64,000 nucleotides of DNA from Hysterangium stoloniferum (taxonomy: Eukaryota; Basidiomycota; Agaricomycetes; Hysterangiales; Hysterangiaceae): positions 62,001-126,000 of the forward strand of contig WHVD01000202.1 of NCBI GenBank assembly GCA_015178975.1, given 5' to 3'. Shown piece after piece: positions 1,772 through 62,527 of the stretch. The position numbers and the translations under genes are program-made. The notes under the pieces were generated by a model that was given only the letters and a program-made list of their open reading frames with translations, made no database searches and was not told the DNA's origin. Numbering within the stretch: position 1 is the first letter of the stretch; the number at the start of each line of letters is the position of its first letter.

Positions 1772-2634
1772 TGTTAGGATACACACTCAGGCCGGGTTTC
1801 TGGAGAAACCTGCGGGATATCCGGTAGGACTTGGCTTCAGCTTATAGGCTGTGCCCTCGCTAGATCGTGTTGTCCAATTTCAGACAGGCGGACGGGAATC
1901 CCGGGGAGTCCGGGCAGGGGTTCATGGGTTGTGAGTCGTAGGTTGTGAGTCGAGAGTCGTGAATCGAGATAGTCGAGAGAGATAGATGTGCCGGAGCCCG
2001 TGGGCTCCGACTAGTGCGAGCGGTCTGATAAGAGTAGGGTTTTAGAGAGGAAAATGTATTAGATTACTGGGGGGAATCTAAGCTAATTTTCTGACTGGAT
2101 TGTATGTACAACATCTGCCAGTTTATATAGACCGTGGAATGCATGACATACCGAATCCAGTAATAATGAGACGAAATGAGCAAAACACAAAACGGGAATA
2201 GTAAACACGAAATTGGTGTTAGGAACGGGACGGAACGGAGCGGAGTCCGAATCGTGACAAAGTATAACCCATAACGGGAAACGGAGCGGGAGCGGAGTCC
2301 TAAATCGTGACAGGTCATTTGACTAAAACGGGAACAGGGCTCAATTAGAGCGGTGACGGGATTCTAAGCGGGTTCCGGCATTAAGACACATATCAGTCAC
2401 CGGACTTCCCCCGGACCCCGTCTCTGTCTATGTCCGTCTGCTCGACTTCCCGACCTCTCAACCCACAAACCCTGCCCAGACTCCCTGGGATTCCTGTCCA
2501 CTTGTTTGAAATTGGACAACATGATCTCATGAGGGCGCAGCCTATAAGCTGAAGCCAAGTCCTAGTCCTACCAGCTTTCCTGTGGGTTTCTCTGGAAACC
2601 CTCTGTATACACACCCTTAACATAAGGTACTACA
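1772..2634. mobile_element. Family A LTR, rearranged head-to-head into an inverted duplicate
   Basis: From 1772 the sequence is a family A LTR read on the minus strand: TGTTAGGATACACAC, a hairpin motif at 1827-1860, and the U3 promoter region to about 2378. It then switches to the plus orientation of the same LTR, with U3 sequence (CACATATCAGTCACCGG) joined after a deletion to the LTR 3' end. That part has a hairpin at 2533-2562 and ends CACCCTTAACA. The result is a palindromic LTR chimera at the centre of the larger inverted repeat. It could be one LTR with an inversion and deletion, or two LTRs in opposite orientation that recombined. Confidence 0.7.
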
Positions 2635-28191: not shown

Positions 28192-28913
28192 TGTTAAGAA
28201 CTAAAACTGACTAATGTCGGTGGCTGATGGGGACCGATCGGAAGGACTTGGCTTCAGCTTATGTGCTGCGCCCTTGCAAATATCTGTAGGGTGTCCTTAG
28301 ATTTTGGACTGGCGTAGACTAATCCTAAAGAGTTCCTTTCGGGGAGATACTGATCGGGACTGAAGGACAAGTCGAGTGTCAGGCCAGGGGTCGGGGCTGA
28401 GAGTGGACGAGCACACGCGAAGGTGGATGGGGGGATTCTTAGTATGAGACTGTTACAGATGTATGAGGGTATTCTGAGTCGATATTCTGATTGCCTAGTA
28501 ACTACAACTACAGCGGGTTCATATACAAGTAACAGGCGTCTAGAAAATACTAATGGGGAGAAGGGTGGAAAACGGCATTAACAATAAGCTTGACTAGGAA
28601 CGGGAAGTTTATGATTAGTTCAGAGGCCGATAATAACCGAGAGCGAAATTACGATAAAAGGAAATAGTTCAAGGACTACAAATATAGATAGGCATATGTG
28701 AAACATAGAGTGGAACGGATCAACATAATGAAAGGGACGTATCAAAGCATAACCAGACAGAAAGGCGTAGTCAGGTTTGATTGACCGGAAGGCATACGTC
28801 AGCGTCGGGGGACTGACGGCCTCCGAGATATCGTCTTGATTGAAGAAGGATAACTACGACGATATACCATCGGTTACCGTCGGCATGCGAAGGGTTGCGA
28901 CACAGTCGTAACA
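28192..28913 (-). mobile_element. Family C solo LTR, 722 bp
   Basis: Plus strand begins TGTTAAGAACTAAAACTG and ends CACAGTCGTAACA. It is flanked on both sides by the 5 bp target duplication ACTTG (28187-28191 and 28914-28918). The U5 hairpin motif is at 28244-28275, in antisense. No internal region adjoins, so this is a solo LTR. Confidence 0.9.
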
Positions 28914-29400
28914 ACTTGTTAGAATGGGAAGGGGGATCGGGGCACAGAATAGTGACCCTAGTGGACGAATAGACCACCACTCAAACTCAGATTGACTGCA
29001 TGGTGGACAGAACCAAAGCCATGGATAAGGACTACTATGGATATACATATGTGGGTACTTAGGGTTCCAAACCACATATTCCAACATTACTAGCTGTAGA
29101 AGTGGGCACAGTTCCAAAATACTGTAGAAGGCATTGAAATACTGTAAGACTAGCATCTGCCACAGGTGCAACAGACACTACAATGAATGATGAGAACAAA
29201 CCACTACTATGTGCAAAATTCACATGTAGATAATACTGTATATTGTAAGAATATGCAACAGGATTTCATATGGGTGAGGGGATGACAAAGTCCCTACTGA
29301 AATACATGTGATGACTAAGCTACTGTACAGTACTAAATACCCGAGTGTAGTCAGACTGTGAGCACTCTCAACAGCTTGCAATATTCTAACATATATATAA
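28914..29400. other. Unclassified spacer before the minisatellite
   Basis: No gene or recognised repeat. AGGCATTGAAATACTGTAAG-like sequence with ACTGTAGAAGG recurs at about 29121 and 29742, on either side of the minisatellite, hinting at a duplicated flank. Confidence 0.3.
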
Positions 29401-29690
29401 GTGGACAACAAAAGGGGAGTGGACAACAAAAGGGGAGTGGACAACAATGGAGAGTGGACAACAATGGAGAGTGGACAACAATGGAGAGTGGACAACAATG
29501 GAGAGTGGACAACAATGGAGAGTGGACAACAATGGAGAGTGGACAACAATGGAGAGTGGACAACAATGGAGAGTGGACAACAATGGAGAGTGGACAACAA
29601 TGGAGAGTGGACAACAATGGAGAGTGGACAACAATGGAGAGTGGACAACAATGGAGAGTGGACAACAATGGAGAGTAGACAACAATAACA
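29401..29690. repeat. 17 bp minisatellite
   Basis: Two 18 bp units GTGGACAACAAAAGGGGA (29401-29436) are followed by fourteen copies of GTGGACAACAATGGAGA (29437-29674) and a degenerate unit. The 14 copies are identical as far as I can read. Because the period is not a multiple of three, all frames stay open and produce spurious repetitive reading frames on both strands. Confidence 0.95.
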
Positions 29691-29757
29691 ATGGAACCAT
29701 ATGTTACCAAATCACAGTGTAGGGAGTCACACTCCCTTACAATACTGTAGAAGGTGG

Positions 29758-31147
29758 TGTGATTTTCCTTCATCATGAATGTCATCAGTTTATTTCTGCA
29801 TTGCCAGCTTAGTTGTAAGGCCCAAAATTGAGTTAAAATTCTTTGACACATGCATCCCAATCATTGAGCCAAGCCAGAGCTTCATCAGATAATCCAGAGA
29901 GTCTGGGTTTGAACCAATCCTAAGCAGTAACCTTAAGGTAAGAGAGTGTGAAGTTGACTTTTTGACTGTCATTTGTGAACACAGATGGTCAGTCACAGAA
30001 ACAAAAATGACATTAAAGCAGGAAGTTCTTCAACTTCTTCAGATCTTTACTGGAGAATGGTTCAGGTTCTTTGACATTCATATGAGACAGTTCTTTGCCT
30101 TTACTGATGGTTTCTGTTAATATCTAAGTCTAAAAACAAGAGGAGAATGATTTCAGAGGGCTGATGGGTATTTCATACTTAACTGGGAGGTCTGGCTCTA
30201 CAAAACAAGTGGAGCTTGGCTTCAACTTATGTGTGTGTTGCACTCTTGCATGAACTGTTAGGGTGCTCTGGTATTTCAAGAAGAGCAAGTAGTACAAATT
30301 GAGACTAAAGATGATACTTAGCTGAATCAACCAGAAGGCTGAAATGCTAAGGGTTGTGGGGATAAGAGTTGCAGCTGGCCAATGACATCTTCAAGAGTAT
30401 TAGGAGCAAGCAAAGGGGTTTAAACATGAAAGGGGTAATCTAAGTTAATATTAGAACTGAAGAACTATAGCATATATGATAGGATTTTTATACAAAAGTA
30501 TAGTGGATTATCAGAAGGATGATCAAGGAAGTAAGAAGTTGTGCTTGGTCAAAGGAAGTGGGAACAGGAACAAGGATCAAACCAAGACTAAATGTGATGA
30601 AACACAAGTATTCTAAAGGTTGTGAGGTGGCAAATGAAACATACACATTGAATGGGTGATGGAAGAGCATTGGAATGGAGATGGGATGGGATGACCAAAA
30701 AGGTAATCTACAGAGGGATATGTGTTGGGATGCTGCAGGTAGTGACACTGTGGTTGGGGATACTGATAGCAGGGTGCTGGAGGGTTATGAGGATAACACC
30801 AAGTTGCAGGGATCTGAAATGATGGCATCCTAACAGTTTCATTGGCAGATTTCAGATATTCTGAAAAGATTCCAATGGACTTGATGAGTGTGAGGGTTGG
30901 GTTGTCAAGAGATTCAGGTTGTTCCTGAGGACTGGCAGAATTTGAATCTTCCTCATCATCCACAGGATTTTCCTCTGCATCAGGAACTTCCATGACAGGA
31001 TTATCAGAAACTGATGTAGTAGGCTGAGTTGGAGTGTCAGGCTGGGTGGTATAAAGTTGTAAAGGGGATCAAAGTTGAGATGGTCCTTCAGTAGCTCTAC
31101 ATTTGGGACCCATGATGAGCAAGTTGCAGGTGTGAGATCTGATATAC
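29758..31147 (-). pseudogene. Gag remnant of an older family B-related gypsy element (B')
   Basis: Minus-strand sequence matches the gag of the element at 31344-40305. Its start (MGPKCRATEGPSQL-like) is near 31113. The acidic segment EVPDAEENPVDDEEDSNSAS runs 30900-30993, and a C-terminal piece (KLAMQK, near 29790) parallels the one at 38316-38528. It is cut on the left at about 29757, interrupted by the family D LTR at 30115-30835, and full of stops. Its 5' LTR begins at 31148. Confidence 0.75.
30115..30835 (-). mobile_element. Family D solo LTR, 721 bp
   Basis: Begins TGTTAATATCTAAG, ends GGCATCCTAACA, and is flanked by GTTTC on both sides (30110-30114 and 30836-30840). It sits inside the B' gag. 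The hairpin motif at 30211-30250 carries the CAAC/GTTG version of the stem. Confidence 0.88.
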
Positions 31148-31343
31148 TGTTAAGTTCTCATGTCAGAAGGCTTATTTTTGGAAACTATCAGAAAACACTG
31201 GGGAACTCAGATACTTTCAAATAGGGGTAAGGACTTGGCTTCAGCTTATGTACTGTGCCCTTACACAAATACTCAGGTGTCTGTATTTCAGGGAATCAAT
31301 GTATGCCAGAATAATGGAGAATATCCAGGGTTCTGAAGAGTTC
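31148..31343 (-). mobile_element. B' LTR, first part (continues at 40306)
   Basis: TGTTAAGTTCTCATGTCAG starts 2 bp after the 11-base primer site AGATCTGATAT (31135-31145). A hairpin motif lies at 31231-31260. The LTR is split by the family B element. It resumes at 40306 with GTTCTGAATATATAG and still contains ATATCAGATCT at 40359-40369. It fades out near 40620. Confidence 0.75.
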
Positions 31344-31857
31344 TGTTAAGTGCCATGTCAGAACTTATTCCAGAACTATTGGATAGGGTCAGGATGTCAG
31401 CTTCAGCTTATGTGCTGCACCACTATGCAAACACTCAGAAGTCCTTAATTTCAAAGGTGAGACTTATGCTGGAAGATGTGGATATTCAGAGTTCCGAAGA
31501 GTTCTGAATATCGAGGATTCAGAAAGACGGAAGAGGGAATAAGAAACTAAGTCAATATCAGATCTAAAGTAAAGTACAAATTTGTGGAAACTAATATAAG
31601 TCTTCTCATTATTGTACTACAAACTAAGACCACAATAAGATAGAAACAGAAGTATTCTGAAATGGGAATACAATAAGATGAATTGGGGAGACAATATTCC
31701 AAAACAGGAATATAATAAACAAACGAGTGAATACTTGTCAACAGACAAATTACCAAATGTGGAACAAGGGAAGAATATGGAAGATACGGTAACTATGATG
31801 TTCTGTAGTCGGAAGTTGGAAGTCAGATATTGAAACATTTGGGAACAGGTTGTAACA
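31344..31857 (-). repeat. 3' LTR of the family B element, 514 bp
   Basis: Plus strand runs from TGTTAAGTGCCATG to GGTTGTAACA. It contains the hairpin motif (31391-31421) and the self-primer match ATATCAGATCT (31554-31564). It differs from the other LTR at many positions, mostly transitions, so the insertion is not recent. Confidence 0.9.
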
Positions 31858-32041: not shown

Positions 32042-33911
32042 ATGTTGATTCATCAACCCTTGTTTATCATTACCCCAGAAGACTCAGACACTGAAATTTC
32101 CATGCTCCAAAAAATGTTGAAGGTTGAAGAACTTCAATGAAAACAACAGAGGATGGAGGAGATGAAGTGACGACAAGAGGAGGAGGAAAAGGTATTGATG
32201 CGGGAATTGAAGGAGGCAGAAGAGGTGGAAAAGCGTGAGTTGGAGTAGGTGAAGGCAGAAAGGGAGGTGTGGATGCAGAAGATGGTGGAGGATCAGAAGA
32301 AGAAGGATGAGGTGGAGAAAAAGCAGCAGGAGTCTGAGGTGGCAGAAAAGAGAGTGAAGGAGATAAGGGAGGGAAAGTGTTAAGAACTAGAAACTGACTA
32401 ATGTTGGTGGACTGATGGGGACCGATTGGAAGGACTTGGCTTCAGCTTATGTGCTGCGCCCTCGCAGTTGTCCGTCAGGTGTCCTTAAATTTCAGGCGGG
32501 CAAAGACTAGTCCTAACGAATACCTCTCAGTGAAAACTACTGATCGGAATCGAAGGATAAGTCGAGTGTCAGGCCAAGGGGTCAGGGACCAAAGGGGGGT
32601 GAGCACATGTGAAGGTGGAAGACGGAATTCTTAGTGTGAGACTTCTGGAGGCATAAGAGGGTATTCTGAGTCGATATTCTGATTGCCTAGTAACTACAAC
32701 TACAGCAGGTTCATATACAAGTAACAGGTGTCTAGAAAATACTAACTAGGAGAAGAGCGGAACACGGTATTGACAAATAAACTTGACTAGGAATGGGAAG
32801 TTTATGATTAGTTTGGAGGCCAATGATAACCGAGAGAAAGGAAATAGTTCGAGGGTTACAAATATATATAGACATATGTGAAACATAGGATAGAGTGGAT
32901 CATCATAATAAAAGGGATGTATCAGAGTTTAACCAGATGGTTCAAGTGTATTTTGACGTGGGTGTAAACAGAGTTTGATCACCGCGAAAACATACGTCAG
33001 TGTCGGGAGGCCGATGGTTTCTGATGTGGTGACTTGAACAGTAACTTGAATCGTCGATAAGTGGCAATGACCTCGGGGACTGATAGGGTTGCGACACGGT
33101 CGTAACAGAAAGGTAAGTTAAACAACAATTTTCCATGTTTTCATCTGATAACAATTGAATACAGTGAAAAGCCGTGGAGGTGGAGGTAGAGGGAGAGGCT
33201 GGGCCTTCGAGTCCCAAAGTAAGTGACTTTGTAAAAGGTTGGAAGTTGACTAATTTCTGAACAGAAACAAAAGGTCAAAGCTCTGGAATGGATGGAAGTT
33301 GTCCATGACAGTCCATGTTATTGATGTTCAATTCGGAATATAACATGTTGGAAACAGAAGGTAAAATGGGGCAGAACTTGCTATCCCTGTGCAGTTCTCA
33401 AACTTCCATGCACTCTCGCTGTGAAGAGGGTTCCGAAAGGTGAGAAGGCTCAGAAAACTGATGATGTGGAAAATTCAGGAATGGCCAAGATTGTGGAAAC
33501 TGAAGTGCTGAATACGGATAGTTCTGGCATTGAGCTCCTCAAGGACACCATGGACGTGTTGGTTTTTATCAGAACAGAACTTATGAAAATGTGGGATGCT
33601 CTGGAGTGCCATAACAATATCCAGGAAAAAGGTTTCCAGTTGTTGACCTGGAATTTCCAGAGGCAAAATGAATTTCTGGAGAAGGTAATGTTAGCATCGA
33701 CGTTATTGCAGTTTCCAAAAGGTTTTCCGATAAGGCAAGGGACCAGCCAAATGATCCATTGGTGGAATGTGTCGAGAAAAGGTGGGAGTCAGGAAAGGGG
33801 CCAGAAGGTGAAGATGATGAAGTGCGGGATATGGTGGAAAGTGTGGAGGTTGTGGATGATATGGGGGTTGAGGCGGAAGGAGGATTTGGAGTGTCAGAGA
33901 TGTTGAAATAG
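32042..33911 (+). pseudogene. Antisense coding unit inside the gypsy element: coiled coil plus cysteine cluster
   Basis: A plus-strand gene runs opposite to pol between the polypurine tract and the integrase end. The ATG at 32042 opens MLIHQPLFIITPEDSDTEIS. A long K/E/R-rich coiled coil follows (KQQESEVAEKRVKEIREGK at its end, about 32370). An intron GTAAGT...TACAG begins directly after the family C LTR. Next come KAVEVEVEGEAGPSSPK, a second intron (about 33221-33266), then KQKVKALEWMEVV and a CX2C...C...CX2C...C cluster with CYPCAVLKLPC. A helical segment (LKDTMDVLVFIRTELMKMWD) and an acidic tail ending GVSEMLK complete it. Stops are TGA or TAG where CGA or CAG would fit. One shift lies near 33690. 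Pol ends convergently about 100 bp away. No known function is claimed. Confidence 0.7.
32378..33107 (-). mobile_element. Family C solo LTR, 730 bp, inside the antisense gene
   Basis: TGTTAAGAACTAGAAACTG to GACACGGTCGTAACA, flanked by GAAAG (32373-32377 and 33108-33112). The insertion falls at the end of the coiled-coil exon, one codon before the GTAAGT donor. The hairpin motif is at 32431-32462. Confidence 0.92.
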
Positions 33912-34012: not shown

Positions 34013-37000
34013 ATGATAAAGGTCTAGGTTTACTCGGATAAGCGGTGTGGAAGTCGATAACAATTTCCATAGTGTGTCCAAGTTCTGTGGCCAATATCCA
34101 TGGAGTTTCCTTGTTGGTACCTTCATAACCTGCCCATTTGACTAAATAGAGCAATTTACAAGTACATCAGCAATTGTCGATTTTAGAATCCAAGATCTCA
34201 GAAACTTCAAATTCGGGTTCTCCATCAATGATGACCAGAGGGGGCAGAGGTTGAATATGTTCTGGGATATTGTTAGGAACACAAGGTTCTAACATGGAAA
34301 CATGGAAAATGGGGTGGACTGCTTGCATACTATTGGGAAGTCGGAGAGTCCATGAAAGTGAACTGGCTTGTGCTATAATTTCAAAAGGGTCTAAGAATTT
34401 CTCAGCAAGTTTTTTAGAAGGTTGGGTAGTTCAGAAGAATTGAGCTTTTACAAAAACCTGATCACCAATTTTAAAGTTAGGAGGTGGGATCCTGTTTTTG
34501 TCCGCAGAACGTTGATAATATTCCTGGGCAGAAGAAATAGCTTTCTGAAGTTCTTGATGTAACTCATTGAGATCGGTAATAAATTCTTGAGCATGGATGG
34601 AAGCCAAATCTCATTTGGAATGTACTGTGAGATTCGGATTATAGCCTTTGTTGGCGAAAAAGGGAGAGATGCTGGTAGTTGCATTCAGAGAGTTATTGTA
34701 GGTGAATTCTGCGATCGGAAGAAGGGATTTCCAGTTGTCCTGTTGATAGTTGCAATAGATGTGGAGATATTGTTCCAGTGTTTGATTAACGTGTTCCATT
34801 TGTCCATCACCTTCCAGATGATATCCCGAGGTGAAGTGTAATTTCATGTCGAGGGCTTTTCTGAGGGCCTGGAAGAAATGGGAGATGAACTTGGAGCCTC
34901 AATCAGAAGTTATGTGAGATGGAACACCATGTTTGAGAAATACGTGAATAATGAAAAGTTCCACTAATTGTAAGGATGTGATTGTATCGTTAGTGGGTAC
35001 AAAAATTCCTTGTTTCGAGAATCGATCCACAACAACTAGGATGGATGTAAAGCCTTTGGAAGTCAGAAGTTGTTCGATAAAATCCATGGAAATTGAGTTC
35101 CAGGGTTTTTCCGGTATTGGAAGTTGCTTGAGAAGGCCGTATGGCTTATGTCTCTGGGTTTTAGAGCATAAGCAGGTAATGCATGACTTACAGAACTGGG
35201 TTATGAAATCTCGGAGGTTGGGCCAAGTATATTATTCTCTTTGGATTAGACCAAGAGTATTGTTAATGCCGTAATGTCTGGAGATTGGATGATTGTGTTT
35301 GTACTGAAGTATGTGGAGTCAGAGATTATTGGAATCTGGAACGTAGATACATCCATCAAGATGGATAAAACCTTGAGAGTCTTGTGACCATTGGGGTTGG
35401 TTGGGATTATTGGGAACTTCTAGGTGTGGCTTGAGGGCTGGGTCGGAAGTGAGTGCAGAAAGGATATCTTGATGTAATTGCTCAATGTCCATAATCATAA
35501 TGCTATGCATAATTGGATAGTAGAGGGAAGTCGCTTGAATAGATGTGGAAAGTTGCTGTGTTGTAAAAACCAGTTTCAAGTTATGCAGATTAACAACAGT
35601 GTAGTTACTTTCCCCCTCTTTAGGATAGATGTCCCATTGTGGGGTCATGGCATCTGGTTTTCCACCAAGATGTCCAGGTCAGAAACAGATAATCATGTTG
35701 AAAGCAGAAAGGAATTCAGACCAGTGGGCTTGCTGGCAGGTCAAAAGTTTAGTGGTAGAAAAATATTTGAGATTTTTGTGATTGGTAACAACATCAACAG
35801 GAGTTGTGGAACCTTCGAGGTAATGATGCCAATGTTTGAAAGCTTCAAAGATTGCCAAAAGTTCCTTATCATGGATGTCATAGTTGAGTTCGGACACTTT
35901 CAGTGTCCGAGAAAGGAATGTGACTGGATGAATTTCACCATTGGAATCTTGAATGGAAAGAATCGAGGCAATTGCATAATCAGAAGCATTGGTTTCCACA
36001 ATAATCGGAACCTCAGGTTTCCAATGAGAAAGAATTGGGGTGGAAGTGAAAGCATTTTTTAAAGTCTGGAAAGCAGAGCGGCATTTGTCATCAAAAACCC
36101 ATGGTTGAGATTTACAGGTAAGACGAGTGAGCAGTATTGTAATATCTGAGTAATTCCAAATGCAATGATGGTAGAAGTTTGCGAAACCTAAAAATGACTG
36201 AATGTCTTTGACTTTCCATGGTTCGGGCCAATCAGGGACAACTTGAATCTTGATTTTGACCATACAGAGACCCTCAGTCCAATAATGAAACCTAAGTATT
36301 CAATAGAATCCATGTCAAAATAGCATTGTTTACCATTGGTGAAAAGACCATGTTTTTAGAGTCTTCAGAAAACTTCACAGACTTGTTCATCATGAAGAGC
36401 GGGATCCTCAGAGAATACCAAAATGTCATCCAAATAGACTATAATACATACATCAAGTATGTTGGAAAATATATTGTTAACAAAACATTGAAAAGCTGAA
36501 GGGGCATTGGTAAGGCTGAATGGCATAACCAACCATTCAAAGGTTCCATAGCGAGTCTGAAAAGCAGTTTTCCATTCATCGCCCTCAGCAATTTGGACCA
36601 AATGATAGGTGTGTTTAAGGTCTATTTTGGTGTAGATCCGAGCTTTCCGTGGGGCATTGAGTAAGTCGGTAATGAGTGGAAGTGGGTACTTATCTTTCCA
36701 TGTGATGGAATTTAATCCTCTGAAATCAACACAGAGTCGAAGGGAACCATCCTTCTTTTTGATGAAAAGGACAGGTGCTCCATATGGAGACTTTGAGGGA
36801 CGGATAAAACCTATTGACAAATGTTCATCCAAGAACTCCCGAATAGACAAAAGTTCTGATTGGGATAACAGGTAAATAGGTCCTAACGGAGAGTTTGAAC
36901 TAGGCTCAATATCAATTTTTAAGTTGTAGGGCCTGTGTGGTGCAAGCCAGTCAGCTTTTTGCTTACTGAAAATATCCATGAAATCATGGTATTTTTTGGG

Positions 37001-37552
37001 AACTCCTTCCAGGTCGACTTTTAGCTTGGATAATTCTGGAGTCGCAAAATGTCCAGATGCTTCATCAACTTTTAAGCTGATCGAAAAACACTGTGATCCA
37101 TCCAGTTTACTTGCCCTAACAAATGCTGAAGTGTTGATGAGAGAGATTTTCAGAGGTTCAGAGGTTTCAGTAGAAGCCAGAAGTGCCATCGAGGCCAAAG
37201 AGGCTCTGGCCGGAAAAGATACTGCAGGAGGAATGGAAGTGTTGGGAATCCGGAAATTAATACTGCCCAATACCCAGTCAATCAATGGATTATATCAGGT
37301 GAGCCAGTTGTATCCAAGAACTACCGAACAGCTAGAGTCCAACTGTGTTACGAAAAAAGTAACTGTCTGGGATGTTCCACACGGGAACCAGATAGACATG
37401 TTGCAGGCTTGAGTAATTGCTGTATTGCTAGTGCCATCAAACAGATGCAAAGAAATTGTGGGAACAGAATGGAGTTTCAGATTATGTTTCATGGCAAAGG
37501 TGGTATCTACAAAACAGTGTGTGGAGCCAGAATCTATCAGAGCTCGGAACAC
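34013..37552 (-). pseudogene. Decayed pol of the family B element
   Basis: Read leftward, the protease active site LIDSGSTHCFVD is at about 37510-37545. RT runs from about 37285, with the [20 protein letters not shown] block, the [15 protein letters not shown] block and the catalytic [12 protein letters not shown] near 36420. RNase H has VETNASDYAIASIL and HDKELLAIFEAFKHW (35840-36000). The integrase core has WMDFIEQL-like DFIEQLLTSKG, HGVPSHITSD and EHVNQTLEQYL (34740-35087). A chromodomain follows at about 34030-34235, with EILDSKID, LLYLVKWAGYEG and the aromatic cage-like region to FHTAYPSKPRP. Frames are interrupted by multiple stops. The termination codon lies near 34013. Confidence 0.88.
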
Positions 37553-37599
37553 TAAATTTCCAAGAAGGTCAGAGATGAGTTTTACAAATAATGAGTTGG

Positions 37600-38904
37600 G
37601 ATTAGAGAGAGTGGACGTGTTGAGATGGATAAACTTGGAAACACGGAGAGAGTCAACGCAACCCTCTGTCCGTGCAGATTCCAGAGGGTTGCTTACTCTT
37701 TTTTCAACTCTGTGGCGGGTTTTTCCTTTGATGTTGTAGTCGTAGTGGAAGTTGCCACGCAGGCCTTGGAAGAGTTAGACTTAATGGTACAGTCGGAAAC
37801 CTTGTGTCTGCCTTTCCCACAGAAAAGGCAGAGATCGTTATCCATGCGTCATTGTTTCTCCTTCGGGGTGAGTTTACCATCAGTGCCCAACAAGTGGGAA
37901 ATGTCGGGTTTGTCAGAAGTTGACTGTTTTTCCTTGTTGGATTTCTTGTCTTTTTTCCAATTGGAATTTGATTTGCCAGTATTAGTGCCAGAGTTGCCAG
38001 TGTTATTGCCTGAGTTATTGCCGGAAGACGTGCTAGTCGACACCTTGTTGTTTTGAGAATGTTCCATCAGATTCTCTTGGGAGACCTCAGCTTTTTGTTC
38101 CCAATAACGGGCATCAGATGTCTGAACTTTAATCCACATGAGTTGGAGAGTTTTTGGCTTCCCATCTTTGCCGATCTCGTCTTTAAGGTGTGACAGAAGT
38201 CCCATATAGAAATGGTGCCTGAGGGCAGAATCATCCCATCCACATCATGTGGTGAGGGTATTGAACTTGACAAGATAATCAGAGACTCGTTTATTGTCTT
38301 TCATCTTAAGCATCATTAATTCATTTTCTGCTTCGCCGGATTGATTGTAAGGTCCAAAATTAGTTTCCAGTTCTTCCACAAATGCATCCCAGTCATTGAG
38401 CCATATGGGTGTCTCGTTGGATATTCCAGATAGTCCAGGTTCAAACCAATCCTGAGTGGTATCCTTGAGATAAGAGAGTGTGAAATTGACTTTTCGACTG
38501 TCAGATTTAAATGCAGCGGGTCAATCACAGAAACTGAAATGGCATTGGAGAAGGAAATTCTTCAATTTTTTTGGATCCTTGCCAGTAAATGGTTCAGGTT
38601 CTTTAACTCTGGTATGGGATGATTCTTTGCTATCCTCAGTGGATTTCAAATAGTCAGTGAATTTCACAATGGAGTTGACAAACAACATTTCAGTTGGTTC
38701 ATCGGAAGATTTCTTTTTTGATGTCGCCGGCTGTTCTTCTACTTCATTGTCAGAAGTGCTGGGAGCGTTGAGATCCTTCGCTACCTCAGTAACTTCTTCG
38801 ATGGAAGCCTGTCAGCTGAATTGGGGTTTCGGGTTGAGTGGTATAAAGTTGCAATGGGGATTGAAGTTGAGATGGTCCTTTGGCAGCTTTGCATTTGGGA
38901 CCCA
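37600..38904 (-). pseudogene. Decayed gag of the family B element
   Basis: The start MGPKCKAAKGPSQLQSPLQL lies at about 38904, 16 bp inside from the primer site. The capsid-like middle is broken by stops. A low-complexity NSGNNTGNSGTNTGKSNS linker lies near 37990. A CCHC zinc knuckle follows, CLFCGKGRHKVSDC (about 37790-37830), the usual RNA-binding end of Gag. The N-terminus resembles the gag starts at 31113 and 53281, which ties families A, B and B' together. Confidence 0.82.
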
Positions 38905-38919
38905 TGAGTCATAGAATTG

Positions 38920-38932
38920 AGATCTGATATAC
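38920..38932 (-). other. Self-priming primer-binding site of the family B element
   Basis: On the minus strand the 5' LTR ends ...CTTAACA, then GT, then ATATCAGATCT. These 11 bases are the exact complement of AGATCTGATAT in the LTR (39173-39183), which lies about 25 bp downstream of a TATATTA box. No TGG-type tRNA primer site is present. This is the layout used by Tf1 for self-priming. Confidence 0.75.
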
Positions 38933-40305
38933 TGTTAAGTGCCGTGTAGGAACTTATTCTGGAACTATCGAAAAGTCACCGGGAATTCGGGAACTATCGG
39001 ATAGGGTCAGGACATCGGCTTCAGCTTATGTGCTGCACCTCTACGCAAACACTCAGAAGTCCTTAATTTCAAAGGTGAGACTTATGCTGGAAGATGCGGC
39101 TATTCAGAGTTCCAAAGAGTTCTGAATATCGAGCATACAAAAAGACAGAAGAGGGAATAAGAAACTAAGTCGATATCAGATCTTAAAGTACAAATTCACA
39201 AAAACTAATATAAGTCTTCTCGTTATTGTACTACAAACTAAGACCACAATAAGACAGAAATGGAAGTATTCTGAAACGGGAATACAATAAGACAAATTGG
39301 GGAGACAATATTCCAAAATGGGAATATAATAAACAAATGAGTGAATACTTGTCAACAGACAAATTGCCAAATGTGGAACAAGGGAAGAATACAGAAGATA
39401 TGGTAACTATGATGTTCCGTAGTCAGAAGTTGGAAGTTGGATATTGAAACATCCGGGAACGGTGTTAGGGTATGTACATGGTGGGTTTCCGGAGAAACCC
39501 GCGGGATATCTGGTAGGCCTTGGCTTCAGCTTATAGGCTGTGCCCTCGTGAGATCATGTTGTCCAATTTCAGACAGGTGGACAGGAATCCCAGGGAGTCT
39601 GGGCAGGGTTTGTGGGTCGAGGGGTCATAGGTTGGAGGTCATGGGTTGAGAGATCAGGAGTTGAGATAAATAAGAGAGATAGATGTGCTGGAGCCTGTGG
39701 GCTCCGACTAACGTGAGCGGTGTAATTCAAGTAGGAGTTTAGAGCGGAAAATGTATTAGATTACTGGAGGGAATCTAAGCCGATTTTCTGACTGGATTGT
39801 ATGTACAACATCTGCCAGACTATACTGTATAGACTGTGGAATGAATGACATACCAAATCCAGTAATGATGAAATGAAACTAGCAAAACATGAAATGAGAA
39901 TAGTAAACACCAAATTTGGTGTTAGGAATGGGACAGAACGGAGTGGAGTCCAAATCATGACAGATCATAAACCATAATGGGAAATGGAGCGGGAGCAGAG
40001 TCCAAATCATGACAGCTCATTTGACTAAAACGGGAATGGGGCTCTGTTAGAGGGATGATGGGTTTTCCAAGTGGGGTCCAGTGACTGATGCCTGGGACAG
40101 AGTCGGACATAGACAGGGACAGAGTCCGGTGGGTATTCTGGTGACTGATACACAATGTAACGAAGTCGAACATAGACAAGTCTGATGTACGGAGTCCGGT
40201 GGGAATTCTGGTAAACTGACAATTGGTGCATATAGGGCACAGGTGCATATAAGTTAGTGCCCAGAGTCCGGTGGGAATTCCAGTCATAACAAATGGGTCG
40301 TAACA
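38933..40305 (-). repeat. 5' LTR of the family B element, split by a family A LTR
   Basis: TGTTAAGTGCCGTG at 38933 to GGGAACGG at 39462, then resuming as GTCGTAACA and ending at 40305. It carries the hairpin at 39010-39040, the self-primer source at 39173-39183 and a TATA-like CTTATATTAG (minus strand, 39205-39214). Confidence 0.88.
39463..40291 (-). mobile_element. Family A solo LTR, 829 bp
   Basis: TGTTAGGGTATGTACATG to CCAGTCATAACA. It is flanked by AACGG (39458-39462) and AATGG (40292-40296), a target duplication differing by one C-to-T change. It lies in the last bases of the family B LTR. The hairpin motif is at 39516-39545. Confidence 0.88.
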
Positions 40306-43030: not shown

Positions 43031-43868
43031 TGTTACGACCGGACAATCCCACCGGACTCCGGGCACTAACCCATATGCCCCCACGCGCTACAAGCACCAA
43101 TCGTCTGTTTATAGGATTTCCCGCCCGGACTCCGTTACATCAAGACTCGTTACATTCGACCTCATTATGACACATATCAGTCACCGAACTTCCCCCAGAC
43201 TCCATCTCTGTCTATGTCCGTCTTCGTCCCACGCATCAGTCACTGGTCCCCACTTAGAATCCCGTCACCGCTCTAATCGAGCCCCGTTCCCGTTTTAGTC
43301 AAATGACCTGTCACGATTTAGGACTCCGCTCCCGCTCCGTTTCCCATTATGGGTTATGCTTTGTCATGATTCGGACTCCGCTCCGTTCTGTTCCGTTCCT
43401 AACACCAATTTGGTGTTTACTATTCCCGTTTTATGTTTTGTTAGTTTCGTTTCATTATTACTGGATTTGGTATGTCATGCATTCCACGGTCTATATAAAC
43501 TGGCAGATGTTGTACATACAATCCAGTCAGAAAATTAGCTTAGATTCCCCCCAGTAATCTAATAATATTTTCCGCTCTAAAACCTTACTCGATTCACATC
43601 GCTCGCACTAGTCGGAGCCCACGGGCTCCAGTGCATCTATTTCTCTCAACCAACTTGACTCACGACCCACGACCTCCGACTTACGACCCACGACCCGACT
43701 TACAACCTACGACCCACGAACCCCGCCCGGACTCCCTGGGATCCACGTCCGTCCGTTTGAAATTGGACAACATGATCTAGCAAGGGCGCAGCCTATAAGC
43801 TGAAGCCAAGTCCTACCGGATATCCCGGGGGTTTCTCCGGAAACCCGGCCTGAGTGTGTATCCTAACA
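43031..43868 (+). mobile_element. Family A solo LTR, 838 bp
   Basis: TGTTACGACCGGACAATCCC to GTGTGTATCCTAACA, flanked by GCCTC (43026-43030 and 43869-43873). A TATATAAA box (43492-43499) is 33 bp before AGTCAGAAAAT (43525-43535). A hairpin motif is at 43784-43813. It is the best preserved family A copy here. Confidence 0.95.
43784..43813 (+). promoter_or_regulatory. U5 hairpin shared by several LTR families (reference copy)
   Basis: AGGGCGCAGCCTATAAGC then TGAAGCCAAGTCC. It folds as an outer stem GGC/GCC and an inner stem CAGC/GCTG, with one unpaired base on the 5' side, two on the 3' side and a six-base loop (CTATAA). It lies about 260 nt after the inferred transcription start and 55-85 nt before the LTR end. 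Other copies are near 1827, 2533, 28244, 30211, 31231, 31391, 32431, 39010, 39516, 44422, 44871, 48715, 51867, 53162, 55489, 61870, 62420 and 62925. Confidence 0.65.
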
Positions 43869-44241: not shown

Positions 44242-45842
44242 TGTTAAGATCTAAGCAAAGGGGCAAAAAGGGAGGTTTTTCAGAAGTCTGGAAAGGCAAG
44301 ATCATACAAATTGGGGAGTCTGACCTTTAGGATCTAGGGTTGAAGGATGAAGGAGGAACAATGTCAGAGGGCTGACAAAGCAAGTTGTACTAATCAGGAG
44401 GTCTGATTCTACAAAACAAGTGGAGCTTGGCTTCAACTTATGTGTTGTGCCCTCACATGAACTGTTAGGGTGCTCCAGTATTTCAAGAGAATGGATAGTA
44501 TGAATTCCAACTGAAGACAACACTTAGCTGAATCAACCAGAGGGCCAAAAATGCTAAGAGTTGTATGGGTAAGACTCACAGCTGGCTGATGACATCTTTG
44601 AAGGGAATAGGAGAAGAGTAAAAGGGAATTAAAATTAGAGGAGGGTAATCTAGGTCAATATTCAAACTAGGGAACTGGAGCATATATGCATGAAGAGAGC
44701 TTTATACTACAGTAAAATGGTTAATTGGAGGGCTGATTTAGGAAGTGAGGGGTTAAATGGATCAAAGGGAAGTAAGTGACAAAGCAAGGAAGTGTTAAGT
44801 GCCGTGTTGGGAACTTATTCTGGAACTATTGGAAAATGACTGGGAACTCGGAAACTTCCAAATAGGGTCAGGACATCAGCTTCAGCTTATGTGCTGCACC
44901 TCTATGCAAATGCTCAATGTCCTTAATTTCAGAGATGGGAATGTTACACCAGAGGATACAGATATTCAGAGTTCTGAAGAGTTCTGAATATTGAGCATAC
45001 AGAGAGAAGGAAGGAATAAGAAACTGAGTTGATATCAAATCTAATATAAAGTACAAATTCATGGAAACTAATATAAGTTTTCTTGTTATTGTACTACAAA
45101 CTAAGATCACAATAAGATGAAATTGGAAGTATTCTGAAATGGAAATACAATAAGATGGACTAAGGAAAGTATTTCCAAAATGGGAATACAATAAGTAAAC
45201 AAGTGAATACTTGTCAGTCAACAAGTTACCAAATGCAGAACAAAGGTGAGATCCAGAAGTATGGGAACTATGAGTGTTCTGTAGTCAGAAGTTGGAATCG
45301 GATATTGAGGCAGGAAGTTGGATCAGAGACTTGGGGCGGAGGTCAGAATGTTTCAGATGATATTGGATATTGAAGTATCCAGGAATGCATTGTAACAGGA
45401 AGCAAAGGGGACTAAATGTAAAGTACCAGAACAATACTAAATGGGTCTGAGGTGGCAAATGAGGTATACATGTAGAATGGATGGTGGAGGAGCATTAGAA
45501 CAGAGATGGAATGGAATTACTAAAGGAGTAGTCTACAGTAAACCAAGTTTCAGGAGGCCAAGGCATTGGCTCCATAGTCCAGGGCACTGGTATTGGGGTG
45601 CCAGAAGGTTGCCAGGAGGTGTGACAGAGTAAAACCAAGTGCTGGGGGTGCTGCAAGCAGTGAAACTGAAGTTGGGAGTACCAATGGCAGAGTGCTGGAG
45701 GTTTGCTAGAGTGGAACCAGGTTCCTGGGCCCAAAACTGTGATATTATTATTAGGTACCAATGTCGGGATGTCAGAGAGTTGCTAGAGGGTCACCAAGGT
45801 AGAAATAGGTTACAGGGGCCTGAAATGGTGAGGGTCCTAACA
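44242..45842 (-). mobile_element. Family D LTR with internal repeat expansion and a nested LTR
   Basis: TGTTAAGATCTAAGC to GAGGGTCCTAACA, flanked by TGTTG (44237-44241 and 45843-45847). Without the inner family B LTR it is about 990 bp, against 721 bp for the copy at 30115. The excess lies in a diverged tandem array at about 45580-45840 (units like GGTGCTGGAGG and GGTTGCCAGGAGG). The hairpin (44422-44455) has the CAAC/GTTG stem. Confidence 0.88.
44793..45397 (-). mobile_element. Family B solo LTR, 605 bp
   Basis: TGTTAAGTGCCGTG to GAATGCATTGTAACA, flanked by GGAAG (44788-44792 and 45398-45402), inside the family D LTR. The hairpin is at 44871-44900. The self-primer 11-mer has decayed to ATATCAAATCT. 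Confidence 0.93.
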
Positions 45843-47782: not shown

Positions 47783-49079
47783 TGTCACAACTATCACAGT
47801 CACAACATCGTCACAAAAACATCTAAGGTAACATTCAACTCTTCAACTTCGACTTGACCAATGAATTTGACTTGACTCTTATTCAACTTTCTTTGACAAT
47901 ATTGAACATCTTCAACATGTCTCATTTCAATGTCACAAATTATTTCATTATTAAATCATAACATAGTCATAGGTAAACAATGGAAAGTGTTATGACCGGA
48001 AATCCCGCCGGACTCCGGGCATGAACTTATACACACCCACACCCTATACGCACCCATTATCAGTTTACCGGAATTCCTGCCGGACTCCGTACATCAGACT
48101 TGTCCTCGACTTCATTACATTGTGTTTCAGTCACTGGAAAACCCACCGGACTCCGTCTCTGTCTATTTCCGACCTCATCCCGTACATCAGTCACCGGACC
48201 CCGCTCAGAAAACCCATCACCTCTCTAACAGAGCCCCATTCCCGTTTTAGTCAAATGACCTGTCACAATTCAGACTCCACTCCCACTCCATTTCCCATTA
48301 TGGTTTATGATTTGTCACTATTCGGACTCCGCTCCATTCTGTCCCGTTCCTAACACCAATTTGGTGTTTACTTTTCCCGTTTCATGTTTTGCTCGTTTCA
48401 TTTCATCATTACTGGATTCGGTATGACATTCACTCCACGGTCTATTTAAACTGGCAGATGTTGTACATACAATCCAGTCAGAAAATTGGCTTAGATTCCC
48501 CCCAGTAATCTAATACATTTTCCGCTCTAAACTCCTACTTGAATCACACCGCTCACACTAGTCGGAGCCCACGGGCTCCGGCACATCTATCTCTCTCACC
48601 AATCCCAACTCACGACCCACGACCTCTGACCTATGACCCCTCGACCCACGACCCCCACCCAGACTCCCCGGGATTCCCGTCCGTCCATCTGAAATTGGAC
48701 AACACAATCTAGTGAGGGCGCAGCCTATAAGCCAAAGCCAAGTCCTACCGGATATCCTGCAGGTTTCTCTGGAGACCCGCCCTGTACCTATCCTAACAGA
48801 AAGCATAAAAAGGCAATGAAAAGAGTGAAGGACCTCAGTCAGAAAATCTCTCCATTGTATATTAGTTATCTGTATTATTAATCTACCTCTTGATTTTGTC
48901 TTATGTGATCATCAAAACTCTTTGACATTAACATCTGTGAGCCTTCATGACTGGTATTAGCCTCTCACTTCATCAACAGGGTGAATCTATACTTTGTTGA
49001 ATGAGGCTTCTGTATTCAGTTTTGTAGAATAAATTACAATTATTATTCAACTTAATCAAAGGAAACTCAATTCATGTCA
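47783..49079 (+). mobile_element. Family E 5' LTR, split by a family A LTR
   Basis: Probable start TGTCACAACTATCACAG at 47783 and end AATTCATGTCA at 49079; about 480 bp without the insert. The TATA-like CATAAAAA (48804-48811) is 33 bp before AGTCAGAAAAT (48837-48847). The hairpin motif is absent. The family A LTR inserted immediately upstream of this TATA box. The left boundary is inferred from the TG start and was not confirmed by a second copy. Confidence 0.6.
47988..48798 (+). mobile_element. Family A solo LTR, 811 bp
   Basis: TGTTATGACCGGAAATCC to GTACCTATCCTAACA, flanked by GAAAG (47983-47987 and 48799-48803). The hairpin copy at 48715-48743 has GCCA in place of GCTG and so would lose part of its stem. 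Confidence 0.95.
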
Positions 49080-51207: not shown

Positions 51208-51951
51208 TGTTATGACCATGTCACAACCTGATGGTCCCCGAAGTTATCACCTCATATCGACAATTCAAGTCATCGTTCAAGTCCTCACATCGGAAACCAT
51301 CAGTTTCCCGATGCTGACGTATGCCTTCGTGGTGATCAAACTCCATTTACGCCCCTATCAAAATATACTCGTACTATCTGGTTAAACTCTGATATGTCCC
51401 CTTTTTTATGATGATACGTTCTACTCTATGTTTCACATACATATGTCTATATATACCTGTAACTCTCGGACTATTCCCTTTTCTTGTAATCCCGCTCTCA
51501 GTTATATCACAGCCTCTGAACTAACTGTAACCTCCCATTTCTAGTTGAGCTTATTTGTCAATATTGTTTTCCACTCTTCTCTTAGTTAGTAATTCCTAGA
51601 TGCCGAATACTTGTATATGAACCCATTGTAGTTGTAGTTGCTAGGCAATCAGAATATCGACTCAGAATACCCTCTTACACCTCTAGAAGTCTCATACTAA
51701 GTACTCCACTATCCACCTTCACGTGCACTCGCCCACTCTCGGTCTCCGACCCCTTGGCCGACACTCAACTTATCCTTCATTTCTGATTAGTAGTTCGGCC
51801 GAGAGGTATTTATTAGGACTAGTTTTTGCCCATCTGAAATTTAAGGACATCTGAGGGATAATTGCAAGGGCGCAGCACATAAGCTAAAGCCAAGTCCTTC
51901 CGATTGGTCCCCATCGGCCTACCGACATTAGTCAGTTTTCAGTTCTTAACA
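51208..51951 (+). mobile_element. Family C solo LTR, 744 bp
   Basis: TGTTATGACCATGTCACAACC to TTTTCAGTTCTTAACA, flanked by GATAT (51203-51207 and 51952-51956). The hairpin motif is at 51867-51898. It is in the opposite orientation to the two other family C copies. Confidence 0.93.
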
Positions 51952-52407: not shown

Positions 52408-53244
52408 TGTTACAACTGGAAATCCTGCTGGACTCCAGGCACTAACTTATACACACCCATTATCAGTTTACCGAAATTCCCACTGGACTCTGTACGTCAG
52501 ACTTGTCTATGTTCAACTTCATTACATTGTGTTTCAGTCACCAGAAAACCCACTGGACTTCATCTCTGTTTATGTCTGACCTCATCCTGTGCATCAGTCA
52601 CCGGACCCCACTCAGAAAACACATCATCCCTCTAACAGAGCCCCATTCCTGTTTTAGTCAAATGACCTGTCACAATTCGGACTCCGCTCCCACTCCGTTT
52701 CCTGTTATAGTTTATGATTTGTCACTATTCAGACTCTGCTCCATTCCGTCCCATTCCTAACACCAAATTTGGTGTTTACTATTCCTGTTTTATGTTTTGC
52801 TCATTTCGTTTCATCATTACTGGATTCGGTATGACATTCACTCCACGGTCTATTTAAACTGGCAGATGTTGTACATACAATCCAGTCAGAAAATCGGCTT
52901 AGATTCCACCCCAGTAATCTAATACATTTTCCGCTCTAAACTCCTACTTGAATTACACCACTCACACTAGTCGGAGCCCATGGGCTCCAGCACATCTATC
53001 TCTCTTACCTATCTCGACTCAGGACCTCACGACCCACGACCTCCAACCTATGACCCCTCGACCCATGACCCCCGACCTATGACCCCTCGACCCACGACCC
53101 CCGCCCAGACTCCCTGGGATTCCCATCTGCTTGTCTGAAATTGGACAACACGATCTCGTGAGGGTGCAGCCTACAAGCTGAAGCCAAGTCCTACTGGATA
53201 TTCCGTGGGTTTCTCTGGAGACTCACCATGTACGTACCCTAACA
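52408..53244 (+). mobile_element. Family A 5' LTR with internal sequence attached
   Basis: TGTTACAACTGGAAATCC to GTACGTACCCTAACA. TATTTAAA (52851-52858) lies 33 bp before AGTCAGAAAAT (52884-52894). The hairpin is at 53162-53193. Unlike the other family A copies this one continues into a primer site and gag, so it marks a once complete element whose rest is lost. Confidence 0.9.
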
Positions 53245-53257
53245 GTATTTTCTGACT
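53245..53257 (+). other. Self-priming primer-binding site of the family A element
   Basis: GT followed by ATTTTCTGACT (53247-53257) directly after the LTR-terminal CA. It is complementary over 11 bases to AGTCAGAAAAT at 52884-52894 and at equivalent positions in the other family A LTRs. Confidence 0.78.
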
Positions 53258-54194: not shown

Positions 54195-54790
54195 ATAGAT
54201 TACCCCTCTAGTTATTCCATTCCATCTCCATTTCAATGCTCTCCCTTCATCTGTTCTATGTGTAAACACTATTTGCCACTTCATACCCTTTAGAATACTT
54301 TTGTTACATCCCATTTAGTTTTAGTTTGATCCTTGCTCCTTTCCATGTTTTCCTTGACCTGTCACTACTTCCACTTCCTTGATTGGACCTCCAACTCTCC
54401 ATTATACCTTTGTGTAAAGTTCCTACTATGTATGCTACAGTTCTTTAGTTTGAAACTCAATTTAGATTACCCCCTCTCTAGTGTTTAATTCACTCTACTA
54501 TCCTCCTATTATCATTGAAGGTGTCATTGGCCAGCCATGACTCTTACCCCCTTCAACCCTTAATATTTTGTCCCCACTCAATTGAGCTAAGTGTTGTCTT
54601 TAGTCTCCATTGTACCATCCACTCAGTTTGAAATACCAGAGCACCTTAACAGTTCTTGTGAGGTCATAACACATACATTGAAGCCAAGCTCCACCTTGTC
54701 TTATAGAATTGGACCTCCTGATTAGTATGATTCACCATTTTCAGACCTCCAAAAACATCCCCTTTTACCCCCTTTGCTTAGATCTTAACA
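54195..54790 (+). mobile_element. Family D LTR fragment
   Basis: The reverse complement of the family D copies. It enters near CTAGTTATTCCATTCCATC and ends CCCTTTGCTTAGATCTTAACA. The left part is missing, so no target duplication can be checked. A decayed hairpin motif lies at about 54661-54692. Confidence 0.65.
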
Positions 54791-55269: not shown

Positions 55270-55565
55270 CTTTGTTCTTGCTTTTAGTCTATCTTTTGTC
55301 TCCCAATTTGTAGAAGCAACACCTGCTCTTAATATAAATACTATGATGTAAAGTAGCTACACTTTGGTTTGAATATCAACTTTGAATCTAGTTTCATTCT
55401 CAGTCTACTCTAGTTTTGGTCCTCACCCTCTTGTCTGAAAACATGCTAAGCCTTTGCCTGCCTGACATTAGGACACTGTCAGTTTTACCAGGGTGTGGCA
55501 TATAAGCTGAAGCCATAGTCCTATCCATCCTTGGCACACCAGTGACTTTCCTGTTACTTCATTTT
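55270..55565 (+). mobile_element. Family G LTR fragment
   Basis: Shares an ordered set of blocks with 62748-63040: CTTTTAGTCTA, TTTTGTCTCCCAATTTGTAG, TTTCATTCTCAGTCTACTCT, CACCCTCTTGTC and the hairpin (55489-55523). No clear ends. Confidence 0.6.
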
Positions 55566-61458: not shown

Positions 61459-61968
61459 GTTAAGATACTAGACAGGGGGATCTAAACTAGGGTATTTATC
61501 AGGAGCTGAGGGTTAACTAATTGTTAAGATAGTGGAGATGGGCTAAACTAAGGTATGTATATAGTGAAGGCCAATGATGAACTGAACTCAGAAAGGATGT
61601 GGTTTTACATAGCTTATGTGCTGCACCTTTGCAAATTGTTAAGGACTGAGTTGAGGACTAATACTACTATGTATATCATTAAGGGTTGGGTGTTAGGGGT
61701 GTATCTGATGTACTGTAGGGAGTCAGAAGACAATTACAATTACAAATATGGAGAAGGGACTAATGATTCATATGATCAGAAACCAAAGTTGTCCAAACCA
61801 TGAGACATTGTAAGGGACTAAAGTCTCTAAGTAATCTCTAAAGGCTGGGGGGAGTGACTAAGAGTAAGTAGGACTTGGCTTCAGCTTATGTGCTATGCAC
61901 TCACAAAGTGTTGAGTTGCCTTTATTTTAAACAAACTTAGTGTATTCTTGGTTTGAATGATGGGCCAA
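61459..61968 (-). mobile_element. Family F element fragment, left part
   Basis: Repeated TGTTAAGATA starts at 61459 and 61525 (TAGACAGGGGGATCTAAACTA and TGGAGATGGGCTAAACTAAGG) suggest overlapping LTR starts. A degenerate hairpin-like TAGCTTATGTGCTGCACC is near 61609. A good hairpin motif is at 61870-61902. The unit is interrupted by the family B LTR and seems to resume at 62528. Confidence 0.45.
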
Positions 61969-62527
61969 TGTTATGACCCATTCCTGGATACTTCAATCTT
62001 CTGTAATTATCTTACTTTCTGCCCCAAGTCTTTGATCCAACTTTCTGACTCAACATCCAACCCAACTTCTGACTACAGAACATTCATAGTTCCCATACTT
62101 CTGGACCTCATCCTTGTTCTGCATTTGGTAACTTGTTAGTCAACAAGTATTCACTCATTTGCTTGTTGTATTCCCATTTTGGAATACATACTCACCTTAA
62201 TCTGTCTTATTATGATCCTAATTTGTAGTACAATAATGAAAGAACTTATATTAGTTTCAATGAATTTGTACTTTACCTTAGATCTAATATCGACTTAGTT
62301 TCTTATTCCTTCCTTCTTTCTGTACACTCAATATTTGGAACTCTTTGGAACTCTGAATATCCATAACTTCCAGTGTAAGTCCCATCTTTGAAATTAAGGA
62401 CTTCCAAGTGTTTGCATAGAGGTGCAGCACATAAGCTGAAGCCAACATCCTGACCCTATTTGATAGTTTCCAAGTTTCCAGTGACTTTCCGATAGTTCCA
62501 GAATAAGTTCCGACACGGCACTTAACA
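61969..62527 (+). mobile_element. Family B LTR, 559 bp
   Basis: TGTTATGACCCATTCCTGG to ACACGGCACTTAACA, in the orientation opposite to the family B element at 31344. The hairpin is at 62420-62450. Flanking bases (GCCAA and TAGGG) do not match, so it is not a simple solo LTR with an intact target duplication. Confidence 0.8.

Follow-up and report, generated by a model that had tools for sequence, protein, structure and literature searches.

Long terminal repeats (LTRs) in the genome of Hysterangium stoloniferum, an ectomycorrhizal, truffle-like agaricomycete, carry a short module that is conserved across LTR families which share little else. At its core lies a hairpin in which a GGC/GCC stem (P2) and a CAGC/GCTG stem (P3) enclose a six-base loop. 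The hairpin is the core of a larger unit that consists of a TGAAAT box, a probable outer stem (P1), a variable spacer and the P2/P3 stem-loop. The host LTRs belong to self-priming elements, and the module lies between the self-primer and the primer-binding site (PBS). On balance, it probably acts as a cis-acting signal in the leader RNA, for packaging or for self-primed initiation.

An earlier sequence-only reading of the window (the whole stretch of 64,000 nucleotides analysed) described the motif as a hairpin of about 30 nt. Its observation is confirmed and its interpretation partly supported; the hairpin is real, but the conserved module is larger than the hairpin. The family letters A–N used below belong to the present analysis and may differ from those of that reading.

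Occurrence and genomic context

In the window, the pattern GGNGCAGCN6GCTGAAGCC occurs 18 times at up to three mismatches, against a mean of 0.18 and a largest value of 3 in 100 shuffles. Two decayed D-type copies, near 54663 (plus strand) and 30218 (minus strand), have four and five mismatches and complete the roughly 20 copies originally counted. A scan of the whole genome (111 Mb, 554 contigs), which the sequence-only reading had proposed, bears the motif out: GGNNCANCNNATAAGNTGAAGCC matches at 11,347 places with up to two mismatches, and the reversed control pattern at 6. The index copy is composed of GGC (43785-43787), CAGC (43789-43792), the loop (43793-43798), GCTG (43799-43802), GCC (43805-43807) and GTCC (43810-43813); by these stem and GTCC coordinates, the span first assigned to it, 43784..43813, is exact. 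The features of the window are as follows.

43785..43807, plus strand: index hairpin, family A, GGC-G-CAGC-CTATAA-GCTG-AA-GCC; P2 43785-43787/43805-43807, P3 43789-43792/43799-43802
43758..43763, plus strand: TGAAAT box, 5' of the index hairpin
43765..43768, plus strand: GGAC, the 5' side of P1, the probable outer stem
43810..43813, plus strand: GTCC, the 3' side of P1, the probable outer stem
43031..43868, plus strand: solo LTR of family A holding the index copy; 838 bp, TGT...ACA, 5-bp target-site duplication (TSD) GCCTC
43525..43535, plus strand: self-primer AGTCAGAAAAT of the index LTR, located 33 nt downstream of TATATAAA (43492) and agreeing with the self-primer of family A
53163..53185, plus strand: family A hairpin in a 5' LTR; self-primer 52884-52894 and PBS 53247-53257 kept
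39017..39039, minus strand: family B hairpin in a 5' LTR; self-primer 39173-39183, PBS 38920-38930
31399..31421, minus strand: family B hairpin, first of two in one leader; self-primer 31555-31565, PBS 31135-31145
31237..31259, minus strand: family B hairpin, second of two, in the leader of the 31399 copy
44878..44900, minus strand: family B hairpin, solo LTR 44793-45397, TSD CTTCC
62421..62443, plus strand: family B hairpin
28250..28272, minus strand: family C hairpin, solo LTR 28192-28913, TSD CAAGT; another, less probable set of bounds exists
32438..32460, minus strand: family C hairpin, solo LTR 32378-33107, TSD CTTTC
51869..51891, plus strand: family C hairpin, solo LTR 51208-51951, TSD GATAT; one P3 pair lost
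44429..44451, minus strand: family D hairpin with CAAC/GTTG and outer stem TGGAGC/GCTCCA
54663..54685, plus strand: decayed family D copy
30218..30240 (approximate), minus strand: decayed family D copy, solo LTR 30115-30835, TSD GAAAC
1833..1855, minus strand: family A hairpin
2534..2556, plus strand: family A hairpin
39522..39544, minus strand: family A hairpin
48717..48739, plus strand: family A hairpin, solo LTR 47988-48798, TSD GAAAG; two P3 pairs lost
55492..55514, plus strand: family F hairpin with G-U wobbles in P2 and P3
62927..62949, plus strand: family F hairpin
61877..61899, minus strand: family G hairpin, TGC opposite GCC

Seven window copies, the index copy among them, lie in LTRs that have 5-bp target duplications and are without an internal region. 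The motif had been placed 50-135 nt before the LTR 3' end wherever that end is visible, and this agrees with the distances found. They are 55-105 nt for 17 of the 20 window copies, the 55-nt value (copy 31399) being measured to an LTR-like end inside a duplication; the copies at 44429, 55492 and 61877 have no clear LTR end. In the genome leaders measured, the range is 59-135 nt, given as PBS distances less 2 and with one duplicated leader set aside. The irregular copies also recur as described: the G-U wobbles of a copy near 55489 are present at 55492, and the lost pairs reported at 48715 and 51867 correspond to two at 48717 and one at 51869.

The motif has no match in viral contigs. Rfam gives no match above the gathering cut-off in the 64-kb window and, around the index copy, two irrelevant matches only (E 2.4 and 3.3). 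A literature search with the motif letters returned unrelated topics only.

The family B leader at 31135-31565 (minus strand) contains a 162-nt tandem duplication and thereby two modules. After the first comes an LTR-like end that lacks a PBS, after the second the PBS itself; the leader measures 420 nt from self-primer to PBS. Elsewhere in the window, about 20 head-to-tail 17-bp repeats form an array at 29378-29737, and host genes lie among the repeats: a DUF726 protein (9079-10767, plus strand), a Gar1/Naf1-type protein (23871-24641, minus strand) and Leo1 (25641-26651, plus strand).

Self-priming host elements

Where an internal region is kept, the LTR terminates in YTAACA; the dinucleotide GT comes next, and then an 11-nt PBS. 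This PBS, 2 nt past the LTR end, has its exact reverse complement in an 11-mer of the same LTR, the self-primer. Self-primers differ between families, and each can pair with the PBS of its own family: family A has AGTCAGAAAAT, B AGATCTGATAT, C AATCAGAATAT, D AGTTCTAATAT and N GATCAGAAAAT, and relatives of D have AGTTCAAATAT and AGTTCAAAAAT. A self-primer/PBS match is found in 15 of 89 copies (12 at AACAGT), compared with 4 of 89 when the downstream sequence is shuffled. The position between self-primer and primer site, as claimed at the outset, holds for the hairpin in all 30 leaders with an exact pair, some of these loci having been fetched through the motif itself.

A motif-blind probe, composed of the LTR end and the PBS start, matches at 1,221 genome places, against 25 for its control. 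In an even sample (every fifth of the 100 probe matches listed, n = 20), the motif is present within one mismatch at 17 LTR/PBS junctions. These include all 15 junctions with a self-primer within one mismatch; at the other two (L091 and L096) the module is present and the self-primer absent. The three junctions without the motif are also without a self-primer within 520 nt, and at one motif-less junction the LTR end is intact and the module interrupted by other sequence. In a hand-picked set of 18 further usable probe places, many of them chosen for a rare PBS class, the motif occurs within three mismatches in 15, and in 9 of the 9 with an exact self-primer. Taken together, the motif is found in 22 of 22 exact self-primer leaders (13 from the even sample, 9 hand-picked), with no mismatch in 18 and at most two in any; the 22 include some elements that the motif searches had already retrieved.

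A TATA box lies 29-34 nt upstream of the self-primer in 10 of 12 module-bearing leaders, and one also precedes the self-primer in most leaders of the motif-blind set. This spacing suggests that the transcript would start at about the self-primer 11-mer, and the module should thus be inside the transcript.

A second short box follows directly after the self-primer (43536-43546 in the index LTR, and at the same place in genome leaders). It reads GCTTAGATT in A, GACTTAGATT in D, GACTTAGTTT in B, GACTCAGAAT in C and AACTTAACTT in N, and sits where the primer would need to be cut off.

Behind the family B 5' LTR lies a broken gypsy element (34899-38520, minus strand) with gag, protease, reverse transcriptase (RT), RNase H and integrase. 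In this one element checked, broken frames preserve the Ty3/gypsy order gag-PR-RT-RH-IN; its integrase matches are weak and below Pfam cut-offs, and no chromodomain was found in the 12 ORF pieces scanned, of 29 listed for the region, in what is a decayed element. Among the 120 RT matches listed, the species named are Trametes cinnabarina and Paxillus rubicundulus. Judged by the self-primer/PBS match and by the gypsy gene order of that element, the hosts of the motif are self-priming, Tf1/sushi-like Ty3/gypsy retrotransposons. The gag piece also matches DUF4939, below the cut-off.

Conservation among LTR families and spacing in the leader

Twelve hand-chosen LTR representatives form 66 pairs, of which 56 align at the module and 12 align elsewhere at a threshold of 25 bits. 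Nine of the ten pairs scored as module misses involve a decayed F copy. The tenth, B-K, has a long alignment that runs through the module and was scored as 'elsewhere'. Most families thus do not otherwise align, as the sequence-only reading had it, but J-N-A and B-K-H are similar outside the module too, so that about five or six LTR lineages are probably represented.

The distances on either side of the hairpin behave differently. From the presumed transcript start to the hairpin, family A (13 leaders) spans 226-353 nt and family C (6 leaders) 146-223 nt; from hairpin to PBS, the same leaders span only 61-71 and 61-64 nt. In family B both distances are fixed (143-144 and 86-87 nt), one duplicated leader apart, and in family D (3 leaders) they are 206-215 and 106-137 nt. 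In A and C, near-fixed spacing to the PBS combined with loose spacing to the start suggests a tie to the priming end of the leader. In family A, part of the contrast may come from repeats that lie between the start and the hairpin.

Spacing also bears on the possibility that the module is an element of translation or RNA export, serving ribosome shunting, internal entry or nuclear export. Stem-loops of this size do such jobs elsewhere, and the module does sit in a long leader 5' of the coding region; its spacing, however, follows the PBS within families A and C, and such a function seems distinctly improbable.

Pairing and sequence conservation in the stem-loop

P2 and P3 positions are paired in 93-96% of cells, compared with 2-37% when the partner is slid. 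Among 135 copies, the seven P2/P3 pairs form in 95.6-99.3%. The AUAA of the loop is near-invariant (A 135, T 134, A 134 and A 130 of 135) and GAAGCC likewise, an invariance that is inflated because the copies were collected by motif likeness. Taken alone, the 27-nt hairpin has modest stability (z -0.4 to -5.4, 16 copies). In folds of whole leaders, P3 reaches at least 0.70 in 7 of 8 and P2 at least 0.5 in 2 of 8; the D leader forms neither.

Compensatory change had been proposed from the outset, and it is found at one pair in one lineage. The family D double change CAAC/GTTG is real and family-wide: P3 G-C becomes A-T at 254 places, the sole double change found to be fixed in a family. At this pair, the 135 copies comprise 117 GC, 13 AT, 3 AC, 1 GT and 1 CC. 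Fifty distinct hairpins yield 10 double-changed cells against 3.7 after shuffling, a value reached by none of 1000 shuffles; all of these cells fall in one pair, and since the shuffles ignore relatedness, related copies inflate the excess. Genome-wide searches at three of the six other pairs gave two places for P3 pair 1 (one of them paired), seven scattered places for P2 pair 1 (four of them A-T) and, for a changed 3' base at P3 pair 2, 15 places of which none is compensated. At these three pairs, one searched from the 3' side only, no double change is fixed in a family. Within the window alone, covariation does not stand out: the number of double-changed pairs was reached by 182 of 500 shuffles and the covariation score by 53 of 500. 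Covariation is thin, confined to one pair in one family, and sequence conservation dominates.

Summed over the 135 copies, single transitions outside the CpG site make a wobble 17 times and break a pair 14 times, which is no clear mark of RNA pairing. CpG decay (CG to TG/CA) seems to be widespread and would account for the GGC/GGT variation as well as wobble does.

These numbers also bear on a DNA-level explanation, according to which the module is a nested inverted repeat that recruits a factor, of the host or of the element, to drive or silence transcription. CAGC-N6-GCTG is palindromic and CAAC-N6-GTTG would be too; moreover, sequence is kept more than pairing, and wobbles are not clearly favoured. 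Less easily accommodated are the U-G at P2 pair 3 in 60 of 135 copies (possibly a product of decay, since the pair is a CpG site), the spacer on one side only, and the distance to the start site, which is not kept within families A and C. A role of this kind is considered unlikely.

Genome-wide, family D copies alternate between CTGG and CCAG and between TG and CA at fixed places, in a manner resembling CpG decay. The alternation looks like decay of older CCGG and CG, and these copies may thus have been methylated.

Architecture of the module

TGAAAT is present within one mismatch in 116 of 124 sampled genome copies, against 14 of 124 shuffled, and exact GAAAT in 110 of 124, starting 20-33 nt 5' of the hairpin. 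The spacer inside the module measures 11-20 nt across 11 representatives. The GGAC that follows TGAAAT can pair with GTCC just 3' of the hairpin, and this outer stem, P1, probably belongs to the module. It reads AAGGAC/GTCCTT in family C, ATGGAC/GTCCAT in H, TAGGAC/GTCCTA in F and GGAGC/GCTCC in D, where a coupled pair is gained; the A-T of B, C and F is T-A in H. In family A, the fifth P1 pair is a T-T mismatch, and many listed D copies read CAGAGC and lose one pair. Among the 100 places listed, of 324, with a non-T fifth base, about 80 are by eye of the H type. In 11 representatives, the outer pairs of P1 give p values of 0.06 (pair five) and 0.09 (the two outermost), which is suggestive and not significant; D was left out, its stem being one pair longer. 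A P1 helix of at least five pairs forms in 43.5% of the 124 copies compared with 28.7% of shuffled ones, a weak difference.

A hairpin in the spacer (P4), which would create a three-way junction, looked good in single folds; it was dropped because its third pair is U-A, A-U, A-A or C-A depending on the subfamily (by eye, in the 100 listed of 1,955 C-type copies). A further hairpin, close to the LTR end, is of inconsistent stability (z -2.8 to +1.3, 16 copies) and was likewise rejected.

The loop follows NYAUAA and then G; it ends in AUAA, after which the block GAAGCC is conserved. CTATAA occurs in families A, H and K, and ACATAA or ATATAA in other families and in part of A, H and K. The loops ACATAA, ATATAA and CTATAA contain no 6-nt palindrome (at most TATA) through which they could kiss, as dimerisation hairpins of retroviruses or Ty elements may do.

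The sequence-only reading left the choice between function and exchange. Recent gene conversion or recombination that spread one functionless segment among families would be consistent with the sharing of loop variants just described. Against this, the spacer sequence and length, the outer stem and the flanks are all family-specific, conserved blocks alternate with variable ones, and all 30 intact leaders contain the module. The module is kept while the rest diverges, and constraint fits better than exchange given that families differ in the spacer, in its length and in the outer stem; exchange without function is thus regarded as very unlikely.

The loop also invites comparison with poly(A) hairpins. 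On this reading, AUAA(G) would position polyadenylation from within a hairpin close to the R/U5 border, masked in the 5' LTR and active in the 3' LTR, like the poly(A) hairpin of HIV-1. It is almost invariant and lies 59-135 nt before the LTR end, and the available part of PMC2645353 describes an HIV-1 hairpin that encloses AAUAAA. Both would also be hairpins of an LTR transcript that present an A/U-rich signal. The module differs in that AAUAAA is absent from the hairpin and that GAAGCC, needless for a poly(A) signal, is as invariant as the loop beside it. A search for the module followed by a run of 12 A within 5-35 nt gave no place, as did its control, and is a weak test. Poly(A) positioning is accordingly a doubtful explanation, both as regards the signal itself and its alternating use in the two LTRs.

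Proposed role and comparison with known systems

The role favoured on balance, that of a leader RNA signal, would involve the module being read as RNA and serving as a docking site for an element protein, Gag or reverse transcriptase. Docking would mark genomic RNA for packaging and would hold the folded leader so that the 5' end anneals to the PBS and primes. The spacing between hairpin and PBS, which differs between families (B and D), and the B leader with two modules count against this explanation. So do the single covarying pair, the absence of a clear wobble preference, the weak P1 and P2, the modest stability of the hairpin and the junctions L091 and L096, where the module has no self-primer.

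A more far-reaching version, to which little probability is attached, supposes one code across the self-priming gypsy families of this fungus, with Gag or RT recognition between families, together with a two-state switch. GGAC (GGAGC in D) would pair either with a GTCC 5' of TGAAAT or with the GTCC 3' of the hairpin, and would so toggle between translation and packaging or priming. The upstream pairing of GGAC was seen by eye; in some H copies, L072 and L073 among them, it is weak or missing.

Self-priming with a structured leader is already known. According to the available parts of PMC7175516 and PMC10085805, the RNA of Tf1 has an 11-nt 5' end complementary to the PBS that adjoins the 5' LTR, and leader structure between self-primer and PBS is reported to be needed. 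Schizosaccharomyces pombe Tf1 and its relatives, as far as these sources describe them, share with the present elements the self-priming 11-mer and an intervening leader structure. In the three-duplex 'pretzel' of Tf1, PBS-adjacent sequence pairs with LTR sequence downstream of the self-primer. The module is instead a stem-loop formed locally, 61-137 nt upstream of the PBS, and its sequence is strongly conserved. A crude test for a pretzel-like PBS-adjacent duplex gave z -1.5 to +2.2 in 29 leaders (the downstream side in 11), none of them clear.

In Ty1, leader structure has been linked to initiation of reverse transcription and to Gag binding (PMC4974528, in part). The likeness to Ty1 lies in the leader structure; Gag docking is here proposed only. 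Ty1 differs in being a copia element with a tRNA-iMet primer and a pseudoknot, and a packaging role could not be shown for it in the available part of the same source. Benachenhou et al. (2013) modelled LTRs clade by clade, Sushi included, and discussed hairpin priming (PMC3601003); the available part of that paper contains no such leader hairpin among its LTR models.

A sequence-conserved leader module common to many LTR families of one genome appears to be undescribed in the literature searched, and no such element was recognised in the accessible portions of that literature, including PMC3601003, PMC7175516, PMC4600332, PMC2864245, PMC4974528 and PMC10085805. In these portions, the leader needs of self-priming retrotransposons are described for Tf1 and yeast relatives. 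With thousands of natural module copies in diverged families, the binding protein and the role, be it packaging, folding or 3' end formation, become testable, and the module provides a marker for self-priming elements whose LTRs are unalignable.
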